Shown piece after piece: positions 25,013 through 52,710 of a stretch of 64,000 nt of DNA (position 1 is its first letter; each line of letters begins with the position of its first letter). A program made the translations under genes and the position numbers. The notes beneath the pieces were generated by a model. It saw only the letters and a list, made by a program, of their open reading frames with translations. It did not search any database and was not told the DNA's origin. This DNA comes from Duncaniella dubosii (GTDB lineage: Bacteria > Bacteroidota > Bacteroidia > Bacteroidales > Muribaculaceae): positions 1,178,001 to 1,242,000 of the forward strand of contig NZ_CP039396.1 of NCBI RefSeq assembly GCF_004803915.1. Direction: 5' to 3'.

Positions 25013-25241
25013 GCGATAGTTTCAAACTTATCGTTGTTTTACTGACATAACCCGACTTTACTACCAATCAATTAATGGTATCTTGCAGTGGCAATCCTTT
25101 TTTAAGCCTGAAATCAAGACCAAACAAGCATACAAACCGACTAATTTCCAAATAACATATATAATACACGTAAGACCTATCCTGTATCGAGACCTCTGTT
25201 TAATCATTATTAACATATTTCATTAATATATTTTAATATTC

Positions 25242-25287
25242 GGGGGGGGTAATTTTTAGGTATTATTAATTTTTATTTGTTCCTTTG
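25242..25287 (+). promoter_or_regulatory. G8 tract and near-consensus promoter before the SusC fragment
   Basis: Eight G at 25242-25249 are followed 30 bases later by TTCCTTTG (25280-25287), one mismatch from TAnnTTTG. The leader to the ATG at 25490 is about 195 nt, AT-rich and without a gene. The same kind of G tract precedes the short-RNA promoters at 46.9-47.5 kb. Confidence 0.5.
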
Positions 25288-25489: not shown

Positions 25490-25897
25490 ATGAAAAAGCT
25501 ATTTTTCTTGCTGATGACACTCCTTGCCCTTACTCTGAGCGCCAGCGCACAGAACAGGACCGTAAAAGGAATTGTCATTTCAGGCGACGATGAAGAACCC
25601 GTCGTGGGAGCATCCGTCACGGTTGTGGGAACCCAATTGGGCGCAAACACAGACCTCGACGGAAAATTCGTCATCGCAAACGTGCCACAGAGTGCAAAAT
25701 CACTTCGCGTAAGTTATGTCGGGATGACCTCTCAGGAAGTACCGATTACAAACGGCGAAATACGAATTGTCCTCGGACTTAATTCCGAACTCCTTGACGA
25801 AGTAGTGGTTACAGCCCTCGGCATCTCACGCTCCGAAAAGTCACTCGGATACTCGGCCACTACTCAAGAAAAGACATCTACATCATCACATTTATAA
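25490..25897 (+). pseudogene. SusC/RagA-type TonB-dependent receptor, N-terminal fragment only
   Basis: The 135-residue ORF has a signal peptide (MKKLFFLLMTLLALTLSASA) followed by the carboxypeptidase-regulatory-like domain of SusC proteins, with VKGIVISGDDEEPVVGASV and the end-of-domain hallmark LDEVVVTALGISRSEKSLGYS. A real SusC has about 1000 residues with a TonB plug and a 22-strand barrel. Here the homology stops just after GYSATT, and a short unrelated tail ends in a stop at 25897. No SusD partner follows. Only 13 bases later lies an inverted-repeat element. It could be a deletion remnant, an assembly join, or an orphan 5' cassette for recombination. Confidence 0.8.
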
Positions 25898-45820: not shown

Positions 45821-46603
45821 TTATTTCCGATCATCCTTGCTTTGGCCGTTACCGGCTTTCAGCTTTCTCGCGGTAGTGTAGGCAAGAAGTTCCGATCTGT
45901 AGGATTGCATTGAAATTTCACGGCCGACTTTACCTTCAAAAATACCCCCTTCTCTGACAAAACTGTGCCAGAATGCTTTAAGGCCGTGGATAAATGGCGA
46001 AACAACACTTATATTCTCATCGCGCACAGAAAGGACTTTGGCCTTCATTGCGGCGTGTGAAGCCACTACTCTTTCATATTGCTCGCGTGTGTCACAACGA
46101 TGGTGAAGTATGTCGCCGTCAATAAACTCAGGTCTGACGGAATCACGGAAAATGACCGTCTCCGAAACATCACGCAAATTCCAGTTGGCATAACGCTTGT
46201 CAAAAAGTCTTATCTGACGGTCGGGATACCATCCGCAACGTCTCACAGGTATACCGCAATAAAAGTTCAAGCGGGAGATACTATAGACCCTGTGGCCGAA
46301 ACCATCATCTTTCAACTTTTTTATCGACTCCTGAAGTGCCGGCGACAAAAGCTCGTCGGCATCAATAGAAAGTATATATTGATGTGTCGTAAGGGATGTC
46401 GCATACTGCCGCTGCGCACCGAAACCGTCAAACTTACGAGTGCTGACACGACAGCCGAATTTTTCACAGATCTCAACCGTATGGTCGGTAGAGCCGGAAT
46501 CGACCACTATTATCTCATCAGCCACACCGCGCAATGATTCCAGACAAGCACCTATATGCTTCTCTTCATTATATGCAAGTATGGTAGCTGATATTTTATT
46601 CAT
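45821..46603 (-). CDS. Family 2 glycosyltransferase (WaaE-like)
   Basis: A 260-residue GT2 enzyme, resembling the WaaE/KdtX beta-glucosyltransferases that build lipopolysaccharide cores. The family motifs are the N-terminal SATILAYNEEKHIGACLESL, VDSGSTDHT, the DxD-like SIDADEL at about 87-93, and YGIPVRRCGWYPDRQIRLFDK-like text in the acceptor part. I begin at the ATG at 46603; an ORF extension starting at 46633 overlaps a -7 box at 46616-46623. The acceptor cannot be named from sequence. Confidence 0.88.
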   Translation of the reverse strand: MNKISATILAYNEEKHIGACLESLRGVADEIIVVDSGSTDHTVEICEKFGCRVSTRKFDGFGAQRQYATSLTTHQYILSIDADELLSPALQESIKKLKDDGFGHRVYSISRLNFYCGIPVRRCGWYPDRQIRLFDKRYANWNLRDVSETVIFRDSVRPEFIDGDILHHRCDTREQYERVVASHAAMKAKVLSVRDENISVVSPFIHGLKAFWHSFVREGGIFEGKVGREISMQSYRSELLAYTTARKLKAGNGQSKDDRK

Positions 46604-46615
46604 TAATGACAAGTG

Positions 46616-46623
46616 CAAACTTA
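46616..46623 (-). promoter_or_regulatory. -7 box for the glycosyltransferase
   Basis: The minus strand reads TAAGTTTG 13 bases before the ATG at 46603; a second match (TACATTTG) lies at 46631-46638. This pins the shorter start. Between it and the array at 46.86 kb there is AT-rich sequence with a 14-bp palindrome at 46744-46757 and no gene. Confidence 0.6.
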
Positions 46624-46866
46624 CCAACCACAAATGTAAAATAAATATTTCAAACGAGAGATATTTTAGCTAAAAAAACGCATCTGTAACCGATAATAAA
46701 TCTTTTTTCATTATTTAATCCGCATTACAGATAGCTGTATTTAAGATTTCGAAATCTATCGGATACATATTATCTAAAAAATTAACAATTTCTTTTTACG
46801 TATAAATCACCTGTTTAAAAACAAAAAGCTACAAAATCGACTCCTATTAACCTATTTTAACTTAAC

Positions 46867-46902
46867 GGGGGGGGGGATTTTGATAATTACTTATTACCTT
46901 TG
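46867..46902 (+). promoter_or_regulatory. G10 tract plus -7 box of short RNA unit 1
   Basis: Ten G at 46867-46876 and TACCTTTG at 46895-46902, with 18 bases between: the G tract sits where a Bacteroidetes -33 element would be. Confidence 0.7.
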
Positions 46903-47198
46903 CATCACTTAATGTCAGTAGGCTTATAGCTACTATCAAAGCAACGCATAACACAAAGTCAACTAAAAAGTTAGGTTAAATGCGGTGAGGGGTCTGTGAA
47001 GTTCCCTCATCTTTTTTTATGTTCCTATTCGAACCGAGCGTGTCGCACTCACGGACAATATGCTTTTTCTTTGGCCTTCCGTTTGACATGGTCATTGATG
47101 CACAATAAAGTGGTAAAAAAAACAAAATGGCAAAATGCCAGCAAACGACACTTTATTAACAAAAATTAACTAATGGGGGGGGGTAGTTTCAAACTTTA
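46891..47198 (+). repeat. Tandem repeat unit 1 (308 bp)
   Basis: Spans from just before the -7 box, through the short RNA, its terminator, a TGGCA/TGCCA hairpin inside an ATAAAGTG/CACTTTAT stem, to the next G tract. By reading, it is identical to unit 2 apart from the G tract length (9 here, 7 there). Confidence 0.9.
46909..47018 (+). ncRNA. Putative small RNA, copy 1
   Basis: About 110 nt from the inferred start to the end of the T run. It has a GTAG/CTAC hairpin near the 5' end, a 46-nt core (46937-46982) identical in all three copies, and a terminator stem (GTGAGGGG paired with TTCCCTCAT-side bases) followed by seven T. No conserved start codon or reading frame is found. Confidence 0.65.
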
Positions 47199-47210
47199 TT
47201 ATTACCTTTG
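47175..47210 (+). promoter_or_regulatory. G9 tract plus -7 box of short RNA unit 2
   Basis: Nine G at 47175-47183, then TACCTTTG at 47203-47210, 19 bases apart. Confidence 0.7.
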
Positions 47211-47504
47211 CATCACTTAATGTCAGTAGGCTTATAGCTACTATCAAAGCAACGCATAACACAAAGTCAACTAAAAAGTTAGGTTAAATGCGGTGAGGGG
47301 TCTGTGAAGTTCCCTCATCTTTTTTTATGTTCCTATTCGAACCGAGCGTGTCGCACTCACGGACAATATGCTTTTTCTTTGGCCTTCCGTTTGACATGGT
47401 CATTGATGCACAATAAAGTGGTAAAAAAAACAAAATGGCAAAATGCCAGCAAACGACACTTTATTAACAAAAATTAACTAATGGGGGGGTAGTTTCAAAC
47501 TTTA
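47199..47504 (+). repeat. Tandem repeat unit 2 (306 bp)
   Basis: Second tandem copy, two bases shorter because its terminal G tract has 7 instead of 9 G. A divergent third copy starts at 47505. Confidence 0.9.
47217..47326 (+). ncRNA. Putative small RNA, copy 2
   Basis: Identical by reading to copy 1 over the whole transcript, with the same terminator and T run (47320-47326). Confidence 0.65.
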
Positions 47505-47516
47505 TTATTATATTTG
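47483..47516 (+). promoter_or_regulatory. G7 tract plus -7 box of short RNA unit 3
   Basis: Seven G at 47483-47489, then TATATTTG at 47509-47516, 19 bases apart. Confidence 0.65.
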
Positions 47517-47522
47517 CAACAC

Positions 47523-47635
47523 TTAAAAGTCAGTAGTTTATAGCTACGACCAAAGCAAAGCAACGCATAACACAAAGTCAACTAAAAAGTTAGGTTAAAT
47601 GTGATGAGGGGACTGTGAAGTTCTCTCATTTTTTT
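47523..47635 (+). ncRNA. Putative small RNA, divergent copy 3
   Basis: About 113 nt. The 5' 35 nt differ from copies 1 and 2, but the GTAG/CTAC hairpin, the 46-nt core (47556-47601) and the terminator remain. The terminator arms show changes on both sides that keep the stem paired (e.g. G-T to A-T at its base), followed by seven T. The ATG of copies 1-2 is absent, so a short peptide is unlikely. Confidence 0.6.
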
Positions 47636-47736
47636 ATCTATATTCTTAAAATTCACCAATATCGGCTGTTAAATTTAATATTCATCATCAGTTATTGACA
47701 ACGGCGACAAGTGTTCAAAGCCTATTAGAAAAATAT

Positions 47737-48369
47737 CTAAAGCTTATAGCCAACTCCAATCCAGACCGAATGTGTGTTGCCGGGATTATCCACATCTATT
47801 CCGTGATGGGTGTATGGATGACCGTCAAGAAGACTATAATTCGAATAGCTGTAACCGAGATAAAACACATACCTGTCAATGGTGGCATTGATTCCTGCGC
47901 TGACATTCCAATAGGCCCATGAAGCGTTCCGACTACCTAAAGCCGGGACGGCGAGAGTTAATCCCGGAGAGGCAAAAAGATGAATCCCGAGATCCTGCGA
48001 CTCGAATCTTAACAGGGCCGGCGAACGGAATACCACCGACGGTTTAAGCAACAATCTTGTGCAGTAATCATAATCACTGTCATCTATGAAATCATAGTCC
48101 AAGACATCGCCGATACCGTTTCCCCACCAGTCGGAAAACTCATGAATTTCGGAGTCGAGGCCGAGTGTTGCGCTCAACCCAACGTAGGGTACAGGCATCC
48201 ACATGACACCGCCGTGAGCCTCCCAGCCATTGGAGTTGAGCCCTCCTAAAAACAGCCCCTCCCATATGTAATTTTCCGAGCCGTCGCGGGCATCAGACAC
48301 GCTCGGAAACAACAGGCAGACGAGAGCAGGAAGCGACCGCAAGATAGATGTTTTTTTCAGTTTTTCCAT
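47737..48369 (-). CDS. Outer-membrane-barrel-like protein, uncharacterised
   Basis: A 210-residue exported protein. The signal peptide covers about residues 1-27 (ILRSLPALVCLLFPSVSDA). The rest alternates aromatic and polar residues as in a small beta barrel, e.g. GLNSNGWEAHGGVMWMPVPYVGLSATLGL, and ends in SVWIGVGYKL, a barrel-like C-terminus with a hydrophobic last residue. I do not recognise a family. It is transcribed away from the candidate origin and lies just right of the short RNA array, which points toward it on the opposite strand. Confidence 0.7.
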   Translation of the reverse strand: MEKLKKTSILRSLPALVCLLFPSVSDARDGSENYIWEGLFLGGLNSNGWEAHGGVMWMPVPYVGLSATLGLDSEIHEFSDWWGNGIGDVLDYDFIDDSDYDYCTRLLLKPSVVFRSPALLRFESQDLGIHLFASPGLTLAVPALGSRNASWAYWNVSAGINATIDRYVFYLGYSYSNYSLLDGHPYTHHGIDVDNPGNTHSVWIGVGYKL

Positions 48370-48963
48370 TGACGAAATCCGACTTGTTTTTTACAAACTA
48401 ATAAAATAATGAAGGTTTTCAACACAAGCCTGACGACAGCCGGCGCAGCGTAGAGAAGCCCTTTTCATATATGACTTGACAACGCAAAAATAATACTATT
48501 CCAAGACCTGAAAAAATCTCATCCGATAGTTTTCAACACTGTTAAAAACAATGTTGAAAACTGTAAATAACAAATCAAAGACTTTTTAAAGAATAACCTT
48601 GCATATATTATCACCCTGCTGATATATGACTTATATCATTTCCTCAAAATAAGTTATATTGAATCTGTCAAACGGTTTTCAATACCCTTTTCAACATAAA
48701 ACGGTTGGAAATGACATGAAAAGTTTTTAACTTTGCACATTATTAACACAATGTTAATAAACTCGGTAAGTAGCCGAAATCAAGAGAGTTAATATGTAGA
48801 TAACTATGAATAAAATGTAAGTCAGACATCAATAACCCATAATAGCAAGAAAATGGCTTAAAAGTTATCAAGCTTATTAACATCAACTATATTTACTCTT
48901 TAGAAGTTTTGATAAAAAATTTTTTCCACAAAATAAAACATAGAAATAAATGAATGTTGAAAA
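48370..48963. other. Candidate chromosomal replication origin (oriC)
   Basis: A mostly AT-rich, gene-free stretch between divergent genes, running 14 bases into nadA. DnaA-box-like 9-mers: TTTTCAACA at 48416, 48530 and 48688, its complement at 48552 and 48955, TTTTCAATA at 48676, TTATTAACA at 48740 and 48874 with its complement at 48752, and the near-canonical TTTTCCACA at 48922. Two pairs form inverted repeats (48529-48538 with 48552-48561; 48740-48748 with 48752-48760). It also holds a -7 box (TAACTTTG, 48728-48735) pointing to nadA. Sampled strand composition changes here, and a parS site lies 11 kb to the left. Confidence 0.68.
48728..48735 (+). promoter_or_regulatory. Possible -7 box for nadA inside the origin region
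   Basis: TAACTTTG, about 215 bases before the nadA ATG. It may drive nadA or produce a transcript through the origin region. Confidence 0.5.
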
Positions 48964-49915
48964 CGGGTTTGTAGATGTCCCGGTCAAAGCCGGTCTTGAC
49001 CTCCCCGCCGAAATCAGGAAATTGAAGGAGGAAAAGAATGCAGCAATTCTGGCCCACTACTACACGGTTGGAGAGATTCAGGATCTGGCCGATTTCGTCG
49101 GCGACTCCCTTGCTCTCGCACGGATTGCCGAGACGCTCGACAATGACATAATAGTTATGTGTGGAGTCCACTTCATGGGAGAGACTGTTAAGATTCTCTG
49201 CCCCGGAAAAAAGGTGCTTGTTCCCGACCTCAATGCCGGATGTTCGCTTGCCGACAGCTGCCCCGCCGACGAGTTCGAAAAGTTTGTCAGGTCTCATCCC
49301 GACCACACCGTAGTCAGCTATGTCAACACCTCTGCGGCGGTGAAGGCTCTCACGGATATAGTCGTGACTTCGGGCAATGCGATGAAGGTTGTCTCGTCGC
49401 TTCCGGCCGATGAAAAAATCATCTTCGGTCCAGACCGTAATCTCGGCAATTACATCAATTCGCAGACCGGACGCGAGATGTTGCTTTGGAGGGCGCTTGC
49501 CATGTCCACGAACAGTTCTCGCTCGAAAAGATTCTTGAACTTAAAAAAGAACATCCGCAGGCGAAGATTCTCGTTCACCCGGAATGTCCGAAGCCTATCC
49601 GGCTCGTGGCCGATAAACTCGGCTCGACAGCCGTGTTGCTCGAATATGCGGTCAACGATGATGCCGATGAATTTTATAGTTGCCACCGAAAGCGGCATTC
49701 TGCATGAAATGCGCCGCCGTTGTCCTGAGAAAACATTCATCCCTGCTCCGCCCAACGATTCGACCTGTGCCTGCAACGACTGTTCGTTCATGAAGCTCAA
49801 TACTCTTGAGAAGCTCTACAATACGCTTGTCTACGAGCAGCCTGAGGTTCACGTCGACGAGAGCATCATTGACGAAGCCCGCAAACCGATCACCCGGATG
49901 CTTCAGCTCAGCTAA
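48950..49915 (+). CDS. nadA: Quinolinate synthase, two compensating frameshifts
   Basis: 4Fe-4S enzyme that condenses iminoaspartate with DHAP to quinolinate for NAD synthesis. The N-terminal domains are clear: [37 protein letters not shown] with the first cluster Cys, and ADSCPADEF. At about 49489 a missing G shifts the frame out of [17 protein letters not shown], and at about 49672-49675 an extra T shifts it back at [15 protein letters not shown]. The frame is open throughout but encodes about 62 wrong residues between. The last cluster Cys is in [12 protein letters not shown]. Net length is 321 residues, normal. Both indels lie in homopolymers. Confidence 0.93.
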
Positions 49916-49935
49916 CCATCATTATCCACGCAATC

Positions 49936-52710
49936 ATGGAATACAATCATAAAGACATCGAGTCACGTTGGCAGAATTACTGGCGTGACAATAAGGTCTA
50001 CAAGACCTCAATTGATCAGTCGCGCCCGAAATACTATGTGCTCGACATGTTCCCCTACCCTTCAGGCGCAGGTCTGCATGTCGGTCATCCCTTAGGCTAC
50101 ATCGCGTCTGACATCTATTCGCGTTACAAACGTCTCCGTGGATTCAACGTTCTCCACCCGATGGGTTATGATGCCTACGGTCTGCCCGCCGAGCAATATG
50201 CGATCCAGACCGGACAGCATCCCGAAAAGACCACCACAGAAAATATCGCGCGCTATCGTCAGCAGCTCGACCGCATCGGTTTCTGCTATGACTGGGACCG
50301 TGAGGTGCGCACATGTGATCCCAAGTTCTACAAATGGACTCAGTGGGCTTTCATGAAGATGGTCGAAAGCTACTATGACACCGAGCTTAACAAGGCTCAG
50401 CCCATTGCCAAGCTCGTGGAACATTTCGAAAAGGATGGCAGCAAGGGAATCCACGCAGCCTGCTCAGAGGAACTCGATTTCACAGCCGACCAGTGGAAGG
50501 CTATGTCGGAAAAAGAGAAAAGCGATGTGCTCATGAACTATCGCATCGCCTATCTTGGCAATACGATGGTCAACTGGTGTCCGCAGCTCGGAACAGTGCT
50601 TGCCAACGATGAAGTCAGCGAGGGGCTTTCAATCCGAGGCGGCTATCCTGTTGAACAGAAACTGATGTATCAATGGTGTCTCCGTGTCTCAGCATACGCA
50701 CAGCGTCTGCTTGACGGTCTTGACGATCTTGACTGGACCGATTCGCTCAAGGAGACCCAGCGCAACTGGATCGGACGCTCCGAGGGCGCTGAGATGCGCT
50801 TCCCGATTGTAGGCTCTGACATCGAGCTTGAAATATTCACTACCCGCGCAGACACCGTATTCGGTGTGACTTTCATGGTCATGGCACCCGAAAGCGAATA
50901 TGTCGACATGGTGACCACTCCCGAACAGCGTAAGGCTGTCGATGAATATCTCGAAAGCATCAAGCACAAGACCGAGCGTGAACGCATGATCGACAAGAAG
51001 GTGTCAGGTGTGTTTACAGGCAGTTATGCCGTGAATCCGCTTACGGGCAAGGAAATACCCATCTGGATCAGTGATTATGTACTTGCCGGCTACGGAACCG
51101 GAGCTATCATGGCTGTACCTGCCCACGATAGCCGCGACTATGCTTTCGCCCGTCATTTCAATCTTCCTATTATACCTCTTATAGAGGGATGTGATGTTTC
51201 AGAACAGAGTTTCGAGGCGAAGAGCGGCAAGATGATCAACTCAGCTTCAGCGGACTTCTCGCTCAACGGTCTTGAAGTGCCTGAAGCTATCGCCGCAACG
51301 AAGAAGTATATTGCAGAGAAGGGAATCGGCAAAGTGAAAGTCAATTATCGTCTGCGCGATGCTATTTTCAGCCGTCAGCGTTATTGGGGAGAGCCTTTCC
51401 CTGTGTATTACAAGGACGGCATACCTCATCTGATGGACGAATCGGCTCTTCCTGTCCTTCTTCCTGAAGTTGATAAGTATCTTCCAACAGAAACAGGCGA
51501 ACCGCCGTTAGGACGCGCTAAAAACTGGGTGACACCCGATGGATATCCTATCGAACTTAACACAATGCCCGGTTTCGCCGGCTCGTCGGCATATTATCTC
51601 CGCTACATGGATCCCGACAACAACGAGGCTCTCGTATCGAAGGAAGCTGATGAATACTGGCGTAATGTTGACCTCTATATCGGAGGAACAGAGCATGCTA
51701 CCGGCCACCTCATCTATTCGCGTTTCTGGAACAAGTTCCTCTATGATCTCGGCTATGTCGTGGAACACGAGCCTTTCAAGAAGCTTATCAACCAAGGTAT
51801 GATTCAGGGCCGTACAAACTTCGTGTACCGCATAAAGGATACCAATACATTCGTTTCGCTCGGTCTCAAGGATCAGTATGACACCACACCTATCCGTGTC
51901 GACGTTAACCGTGTCAGCAACGATGTGCTTGACCTCGATGCTTTCCGTGCATGGCGTCCTGAATTCAAGGATGCGGAGTTTATACTCGAAGACGGCAAGT
52001 ACATCTGTGGATGGGCTGTTGAAAAAATGTCGAAATCTATGTTCAATGTTGTCAATCCCGATGATATCGTGGAGCGTTACGGCGCTGACACATTGCGTCT
52101 CTATGAGATGTTCCTCGGCCCTATCGAGCAGAGCAAGCCTTGGGATACAAACGGTATCGACGGCGTGAACCGCTTTATAAAGAAACTGTGGGGACTTTTC
52201 TACAAGGGCGATAGCTGCCTCGTGGACGATAGCAAGGCTTCTCCCGATGCACTCAAGGCCGTCCACAAGCTTATCAAGAAAGTTACAGGCGACATTGAGA
52301 ATTTCTCTTACAACACATCTGTCGCAGCTTTCATGATCTGTGTCAACGAACTTTCTTCGCTCAAATGCCACAGTCGCGAGGTTCTTGAACCGCTTGTAAT
52401 ACTCCTTGCTCCGTTTGCTCCCCACGTAGCAGAAGAGCTCTGGCACAGCGCTCTCGGTCACGACACTACTGTCAACGATGCTAAGTGGCCGGAATGGAAT
52501 GAGGAATATCTGAAAGAGAACACTGCCAATTATGCCGTTTCTTTCAACGGTAAGGCTCGTTTCACCATTCAGGTACCTGCCGATATGCCCAAGGAAGAAG
52601 TAGAGAAACTCGCGCTCTCACACGAATCCTCGGCCAAGTGGCTTGACGGAAAGACTGTCCGCAAGATAATCGTCGTCCCCAACAAGATTGTCAATATAGT
52701 AATCGGATAA
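49936..52710 (+). CDS. leuS: Leucyl-tRNA synthetase
   Basis: Class I synthetase charging tRNA-Leu, 924 residues, long as usual because of the CP1 editing domain. The HIGH-type signature is HVGHPLGY at about residues 49-56. The editing domain contains the [13 protein letters not shown] motif (about 297-309) and [16 protein letters not shown] with the conserved Asp. The KMSKS motif [14 protein letters not shown] is at about 700. The C-terminal anticodon-binding helices are present. It starts 20 bases after nadA and is intact. A 106-nt perfect inverted repeat follows. Confidence 0.97.

Follow-up and report, generated by a model that had tools for sequence, protein, structure and literature searches.

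Judged by its layout, the closest described device to the poly-G tracts reported here is the poly-C tract in the fim promoter of Bordetella pertussis. In fim, the length of the homopolymer sets the spacing for a factor bound upstream, and one base more or fewer can switch the gene; with a tract that is too long or too short, polymerase is left without contact to the promoter-proximal activator (PMC10172299, from the part of the article that was available). For gut Bacteroidales, the accessible part of PMC11868660 describes phase variation as occurring mainly through DNA inversion, and the literature searched, in the portions of text that could be obtained, yielded no paper on homopolymer promoters in these bacteria. 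On the RNA side, FopS (RF04319) is a family of paralogous sRNAs with an RRM partner, RbpB, in Bacteroides thetaiotaomicron (PMC11697453, available in part).

Here, we describe an array of three head-to-tail units on the + strand of Duncaniella dubosii DNA. The window, which is the whole stretch of 64,000 nt that was analysed, places the array between a glycosyltransferase gene (45821-46633, - strand) and an ORF (47737-48369, - strand), upstream of nadA and leuS. Conservation, synteny and terminator covariation, together with the lack of a stable ORF, give good support to the view that this is a small-RNA array. Its promoters resemble fim in architecture only, in that a homopolymer lies within the promoter, between an upstream site and the -10 or -7 box. 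The differences are that G is here on the sense strand, that the promoter is of the TAnnTTTG type, and that the tract is shorter (mode 8); moreover, the poly-G class would drive sRNAs and exported proteins, and belongs to another phylum. A further comparison is with the GibS sRNA and promoter motif PM2 of Bacteroides thetaiotaomicron (PMC7366714, in the part available). By description, GibS is also an intergenic sRNA with conserved, unstructured 5' seeds, but its promoter is non-canonical, with elements at -10 and -30.

Layout of the Array

The elements of the array and its conserved neighbours are as follows, with the 5' ends of the RNAs being estimates from the -7 boxes.

45821-46633, - strand: glycosyltransferase family 2 gene (PF00535), conserved neighbour (synteny)
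46847-46860, + strand: TTAA-N6-TTAA box of promoter 1, second TTAA 38 bp before the -7 box
46867-46876, + strand: G tract of promoter 1 (10 G)
46895-46902, + strand: -7 box TACCTTTG of promoter 1, 18 bases after the tract
46906-47018, + strand: sRNA copy 1, 5' end estimated from the -7 box; terminator stem 46984-47011
47156-47169, + strand: TTAA-N6-TTAA box of promoter 2, second TTAA 37 bp before the -7 box
47175-47183, + strand: G tract of promoter 2 (9 G)
47203-47210, + strand: -7 box TACCTTTG of promoter 2, 19 bases after the tract
47214-47326, + strand: sRNA copy 2, same letters as copy 1, 5' end estimated; terminator stem 47292-47319
47464-47477, + strand: TTAA-N6-TTAA box of promoter 3, second TTAA 35 bp before the -7 box
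47483-47489, + strand: G tract of promoter 3 (7 G)
47509-47516, + strand: -7 box TATATTTG of promoter 3, 19 bases after the tract
47520-47635, + strand: sRNA copy 3, 5' end estimated; terminator stem 47603-47630
48950-49915, + strand: nadA (PF02445), conserved neighbour (synteny), followed by leuS at 49936-52710

The G tracts of 10, 9 and 7 that the original prediction described, with a TAnnTTTG box 18, 19 and 19 bases further on, are borne out in the sequence. The pattern G7-N15-24-TAnnTTTG gives no match in 100 shuffles of the window. Runs of at least seven G or C occur four times in the window, three of these being the array, versus twice in 240 kb of other stretches of the genome. The fourth run is a G8 tract at 25242-25249, which follows a TTAA-N6-TTAA box at 25223 and precedes an imperfect -7 box (TAATTTTT); it is upstream of an ORF (25490-25894, + strand) for an exported-looking protein of 135 aa with a CarbopepD_reg_2 domain (Pfam). 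Separately, the cumulative GC skew of the window falls to its minimum in the bin of 48-52 kb, and the DNA ahead of nadA includes an AT-rich stretch; this region (window about 48460-52000) may be the origin mentioned with the original prediction.

Units 1 and 2 (308 and 306 bp) had been read as identical but for the G tract, which turns out to be incorrect, as their promoters differ before the tract and just after it. At its longest, the exact repetition covers 291 nt (46891-47181 = 47199-47489); it opens shortly ahead of the -7 box of promoter 1, takes in RNA 1 and the spacer, and reaches into promoter 2. When two Gs are removed from the first copy, 46891-47204 (314 nt) is the same as 47199-47510 (312 nt). 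The pair that is alike except for the number of Gs is the spacer with promoter 2 (G9) and the spacer with promoter 3 (G7), and promoter 1 has a different sequence. Such a pattern would fit an unequal crossover in an older array of two units.

Core and Terminator of the RNA

The 46-nt core that was expected to be common to the three units is present in identical form at 46937, 47245 and 47556. An alignment of 25 copies shows GUCAAC and AAAAGUUAGGUUAA without any variation, while the number of As in the run that separates them changes, and no reading frame is therefore kept. The expectation that no ORF is conserved stands as well, since insertions and deletions in the core disrupt the frames from copy to copy, and the ORFs found within the units (at most 57 aa) were rejected as genes for the same reason. 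Nor does a coding gene follow on the + strand, again as anticipated, the next recognised gene on that strand being nadA at 48950.

A terminator hairpin follows each unit, as seen in folds of copies 1 and 3 and with copy 2 having the letters of copy 1; a simple terminator consensus scan listed the hairpin of copy 3 only. The paired changes that had been ascribed to the terminator of copy 3 hold in part: pairing is kept there through a change on one side or the repair of a mismatch, but changes on both sides are absent within the array. Both-side changes are seen only across relatives, where they affect 9 of the 10 terminator pairs. In the alignment of these 10 pairs, 95.9% of cells are paired, and four of five measures, including the covariation score, are above 500 of 500 shuffles; for the remaining measure, the number of further pair types, 52 of 500 shuffles are as high. 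Slid versions of the terminator all score far lower than the real one. The consensus fold of the aligned copies shows no structure 5' of the terminator.

At Rfam gathering scores, the sole match in the window is a tRNA elsewhere, which agrees with the earlier statement that no named RNA family fits; FopS is close in kind. Rfam matches below threshold (L20 leader, miRNAs, SNORA61, CrcZ and others) were put down to chance or to resemblance to terminators. We regard the array RNA as an undescribed noncoding family.

Distribution of the RNA Family

BLAST with unit 1 finds relatives in 21 of the 27 genomes of the genus to which Duncaniella muris also belongs, and a covariance model of the 3' module likewise gives at least 58 bits in 21 of the 27. 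In 220 other genomes of the family the same model gives no strong match, with scores of at most 40.6 bits, the filters of the covariance search losing some weak matches. A search for the core in relatives by covariance models had been proposed with the original prediction; the core is present there, and its absence is excluded. Twenty stretches with weak R1 matches (28-42 bits) were inspected, several of which were FopS copies and several plain terminators after a conserved gene. The only weak R1 match accepted as a member is a variant in G017, inside the genus, whose flank on one side is common with locus 2 (see below). The array RNA has no match in phage and plasmid collections, viral contigs searched with two core patterns gave none either, and no paper listed by a literature search on small RNA in Duncaniella mentions the genus.

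Assemblies carry one to three copies, and some of the arrays are at contig ends. In Duncaniella muris DSM 103720, a single copy was found, and its tract is G8. At locus 1, that of the window, the flanks examined show a glycosyltransferase homologue adjoining the RNA in 15 of the 20 other genomes that carry a copy there; nadA or leuS is near the RNA in 5 of those 15 genomes, the flanks often being short. At locus 2, the RNA has a different 5' part and the same 3' module, and it precedes an ORF that we label sirtuin-like by eye in three genomes (G011, G001 and G002).

Promoters of the RNA Copies

The promoter is built of TTAA-N6-TTAA, about 9 bases to the tract, G7-10, about 19 bases, and TAnnTTTG. 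With one genome per species, 29 of 31 sRNA copies have TTAA-N6-TTAA, the two TTAA being exactly 10 bp apart, and a G tract is found in 17 of the 31 (2 of G7, 7 of G8, 5 of G9 and 3 of G10). Since the other 14 copies are without a tract, it is dispensable. The distance from the second TTAA to the -7 box is 37-39 bp in all 14 tractless copies and 35-39 bp in 15 of the 17 tract-bearing copies, namely those having the box; the array in the window has spacings of 38 bp (G10), 37 bp (G9) and 35 bp (G7). In the two-copy arrays of G026, G009 and G005, one copy has the tract and one is without it. At locus 2 the tract is retained and its length differs, being G8, G9, G10 and G10 in four species.

The original prediction had a tract at the -33 position setting promoter strength. 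That idea is strengthened, and also reshaped, by the upstream box and by class membership (below): as part of a recurrent class of promoters in which TTAA-N6-TTAA lies upstream, the tract would set the spacing from box to -7 through its length. We consider the chances to be about even that the whole reading is correct, that is, a trans-acting sRNA for which the length of the tract determines promoter strength and the spacing from box to promoter.

A Wider Class of Poly-G Promoters

The pattern G7-TA-N15-19-TAnnTTTG has matches in 136 of 198 genomes of the family, in 25 of its 30 genera, and the reversed-pattern control has 3 matches in total. A looser pattern within the genus matches 25 of 27 genomes, and in the source genome all matches are those of the array. 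In an order-wide scan, 42 of 247 genomes match, with four Muribaculaceae genomes having 4 to 11 matches each (nested starts counted). Outside the family the counts are mostly 0 to 3, similar to the control, and reach 13 in G161. This genome, from another family, is rich in poly-G promoters, and its genus mates have none (G047) or one (G258), a patchy spread. For G168, 3 matches compare with 2 in the control, and one site (L202) has the full architecture.

Among the matches listed, 82 sites have a TTAA within the 30 upstream bases, as was required for this set. Their tracts are mostly 7 to 10 long with a mode of 8 (33 of 82), the distance from TTAA box to tract is 9 in 35 of 82, and that from tract to -7 is 19 in 37 of 82. 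A second count among the matches listed, from 66 sites with the 22 that have no TTAA in 25 upstream bases left out, gives 2 G6, 10 G7, 19 G8, 9 G9 and 4 G10 in the remaining 44.

These regularities bear on an alternative that we hold to be unlikely, in which the tract is a fixed recognition element of about eight Gs, for a regulator or a form of polymerase, that replaces the -33 TTTG and is selected with no switch involved. The modal length and the set distances given above both favour it, each among the matches listed. So do the two orthologous promoter pairs of G003 and G025, which have G8 in both members, and the interrupted 8-mers found in some relatives (GGGGGGAG, GGAGGGGG and GGGGAGGG), as an interrupted 8-mer leaves no free slippage and the modal length is nevertheless retained. 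A fixed element is, however, harder to square with the other lengths at 49 of the 82 sites among the matches listed, which are not clearly compensated by the flanks, with the 14 of 31 sRNA copies that are tractless at unchanged geometry, or with the tracts of locus 2 noted above, which are G8, G9, G10 and G10 at one locus in four species.

The degree of compensation was measured among the matches listed with 64 of the 82 sites and, starting from 64 sites with the tandem box, with the 56 that remain after near-duplicates are dropped. Before de-duplication, rho between tract and 3' spacer is -0.38 (p=0.002), a weak negative correlation that hints at compensation; after it, rho is -0.23 (p=0.08). 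In the 56 sites, tract length is not significantly compensated by the flanks, so that a longer tract means a longer spacing. The slope is 1.1 bp of spacing per G among the matches listed, a value that is partly built in since the distance contains the tract.

Exported-looking proteins follow 27 of 29 non-sRNA sites among the matches listed versus 145 of 288 background genes, with the same crude export rule applied to both sets (Fisher p 2.7e-6). The 29 were counted from 42 sites among the matches listed with an ORF required within 400 nt, 10 sRNA sites and 3 with neither sRNA nor ORF being left out; they include orthologous pairs (e.g., L100/L244, L101/L242 and L080/L240), along with a few sites in other families that probably match by chance (L208 and L216). 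A Pfam scan of nine class proteins found DUF3575 in three, one of them with OmpA below cut-off, and VWA, PD40 and a lipocalin-like domain in one protein each; three proteins had no match. The DUF3575 proteins are those after the poly-G promoters L079, L080 and L101 (Pfam), and L242 is the L101 ortholog by sequence. DUF3575 genes occur in fimbria loci of Bacteroidales.

That all of this forms a slippage regulon, with a poly-G spacing switch in many promoters of exported or surface proteins as well as in the tandem array of trans-acting sRNAs, is a proposal we make tentatively, its probability being somewhat short of even. Under it, slips of one base would alter surface genes and a post-transcriptional regulator through a common device. 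If the class does switch by slippage, it would be a second switching system in gut Bacteroidales, where DNA inversion is the main known form of phase variation, and one measurable by counting Gs in reads. It would also place an sRNA under a homopolymer switch.

Tract Lengths and Assembly Quality

Another explanation, which we judge improbable, accepts that the tracts exist and takes the lengths 10, 9 and 7 to be homopolymer errors of sequencing or assembly, the true tracts being alike and stable. G runs are error-prone in sequencing. In the same genome, about eight susC-like genes are split into adjacent matches (G000:C1, e.g., 1106035-1108976, 772253-775419, 2239234-2242361 and 1799548-1802816), which suggests indel errors in the assembly; these splits may be such errors or real frameshifts, and because of them the G counts of the array are provisional. 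Against this explanation, lengths of 7 to 10 recur in many other assemblies of the genus, both fragmented and contiguous, and tract lengths differ between species at orthologous loci, one orthologous protein promoter having G8 in G004 and G7 in G023. Were this explanation true, only the evidence of 9 versus 7 would be lost, not the promoter class.

Proposed Mechanism

In the reading we prefer, with an sRNA under a spacing switch, each unit would be a gene in its own right. Its product would be a trans-acting sRNA of about 110 nt that ends at an intrinsic terminator and is made from a primary-sigma-type promoter (TAnnTTTG). The RNA would consist of the invariant GUCAAC-(A run)-GUUAGGUUAA core followed by a terminator with a GUGA loop, and its conserved, little-structured 5' part would pair with target mRNAs; it is this build that suggests trans action by base pairing. 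The TTAA-N6-TTAA box, about 37-39 bp from -7, would be the site of a bound factor, probably a regulator or polymerase itself. The G tract would occupy the -33 position between the box and -7, and each G slipped in living cells would therefore shift the spacing, and with it the strength, by one bp. For the genome as assembled, copies 1 and 2 (38 and 37 bp) are predicted to be strong and copy 3 (35 bp) weak.

Duplex energies of the array RNA with 21 susC-like starts are no better than with 243 other genes (p=0.54 for the whole 5' part and p=0.09 for the core), and those of FopS with the same susC-like starts are marginal (p=0.058). The comparison is weakened because several of the 21 starts are inside split genes and are probably wrong. 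A role of the RNA as leader or by-product rather than trans-acting regulator, for instance in relation to the sirtuin-like ORF that begins downstream of it at locus 2 in the same orientation, would agree with the lack of a target in this comparison, but we find it improbable, given that locus 1 has no + strand gene for 1.3 kb in the window and that the three units in tandem are each equipped with a separate promoter and terminator.

Relation to FopS

The array RNA and FopS have several features in common: both occur in several copies per genome, in tandem in some genomes, and both have a conserved single-stranded 5' part, AGGUUAA just before an intrinsic terminator, and a primary-sigma-type promoter. 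The GUGA loop, also common to the two, was dropped as evidence, as unrelated terminators have GUGA too. In contrast, the array RNA is far below the FopS cut-off, copy 3 having 18.3 bits versus a gathering score of 56. Copy 3 is the best below-cut-off FopS match in the genome, and copies 1 and 2 are absent from the FopS matches up to E 10. The units are, furthermore, without the R1 seed, which is seen in FopS loci as UUUUCAUGGUAUUAGAUUUAAGG, and have other 5' sequence; the array RNA matches strongly in one genus only, and 17 of its 31 copies have G tracts.

The source genome has seven FopS copies above the cut-off, three of them tandem. These three genes are at G000:C1:929618-930144 (L189) with a spacing of 227-229 bp, and closely spaced FopS copies are also present in G245 (four, about 289 bp) and G159. 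An RRM_1 protein, the domain of RbpB, was found at E<=0.001 in 0 of 27 genus genomes, some of them incomplete, with the control Bacteroides ihuae being positive; FopS copies thus occur in the source genome despite the absence of RRM_1 hits in the genus.

TTAA-N6-TTAA is present in 14 of 47 FopS promoter regions versus a mean of 1.0 (largest 8) in shuffles, which were mononucleotide shuffles only, and other spacings of the two TTAA occur 0 to 3 times. In FopS promoters the box is 52-54 bp from -7 in 8 of 13 measurable cases, and not 37-39 bp. Promoters with the box include L037, L040, L048, L054 and L060. It is possibly a regulator site of FopS, and a box common to the array and part of the FopS promoters would be a handle on the regulator of those sRNAs. 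A further conserved element, AAGCATAATGTGATGAATGGAGAGAGAGGCAG...CCCCCTCTCT with a terminator hairpin, is found at L183-L186, L173 and L188 in two genera, downstream of what is apparently one conserved gene.
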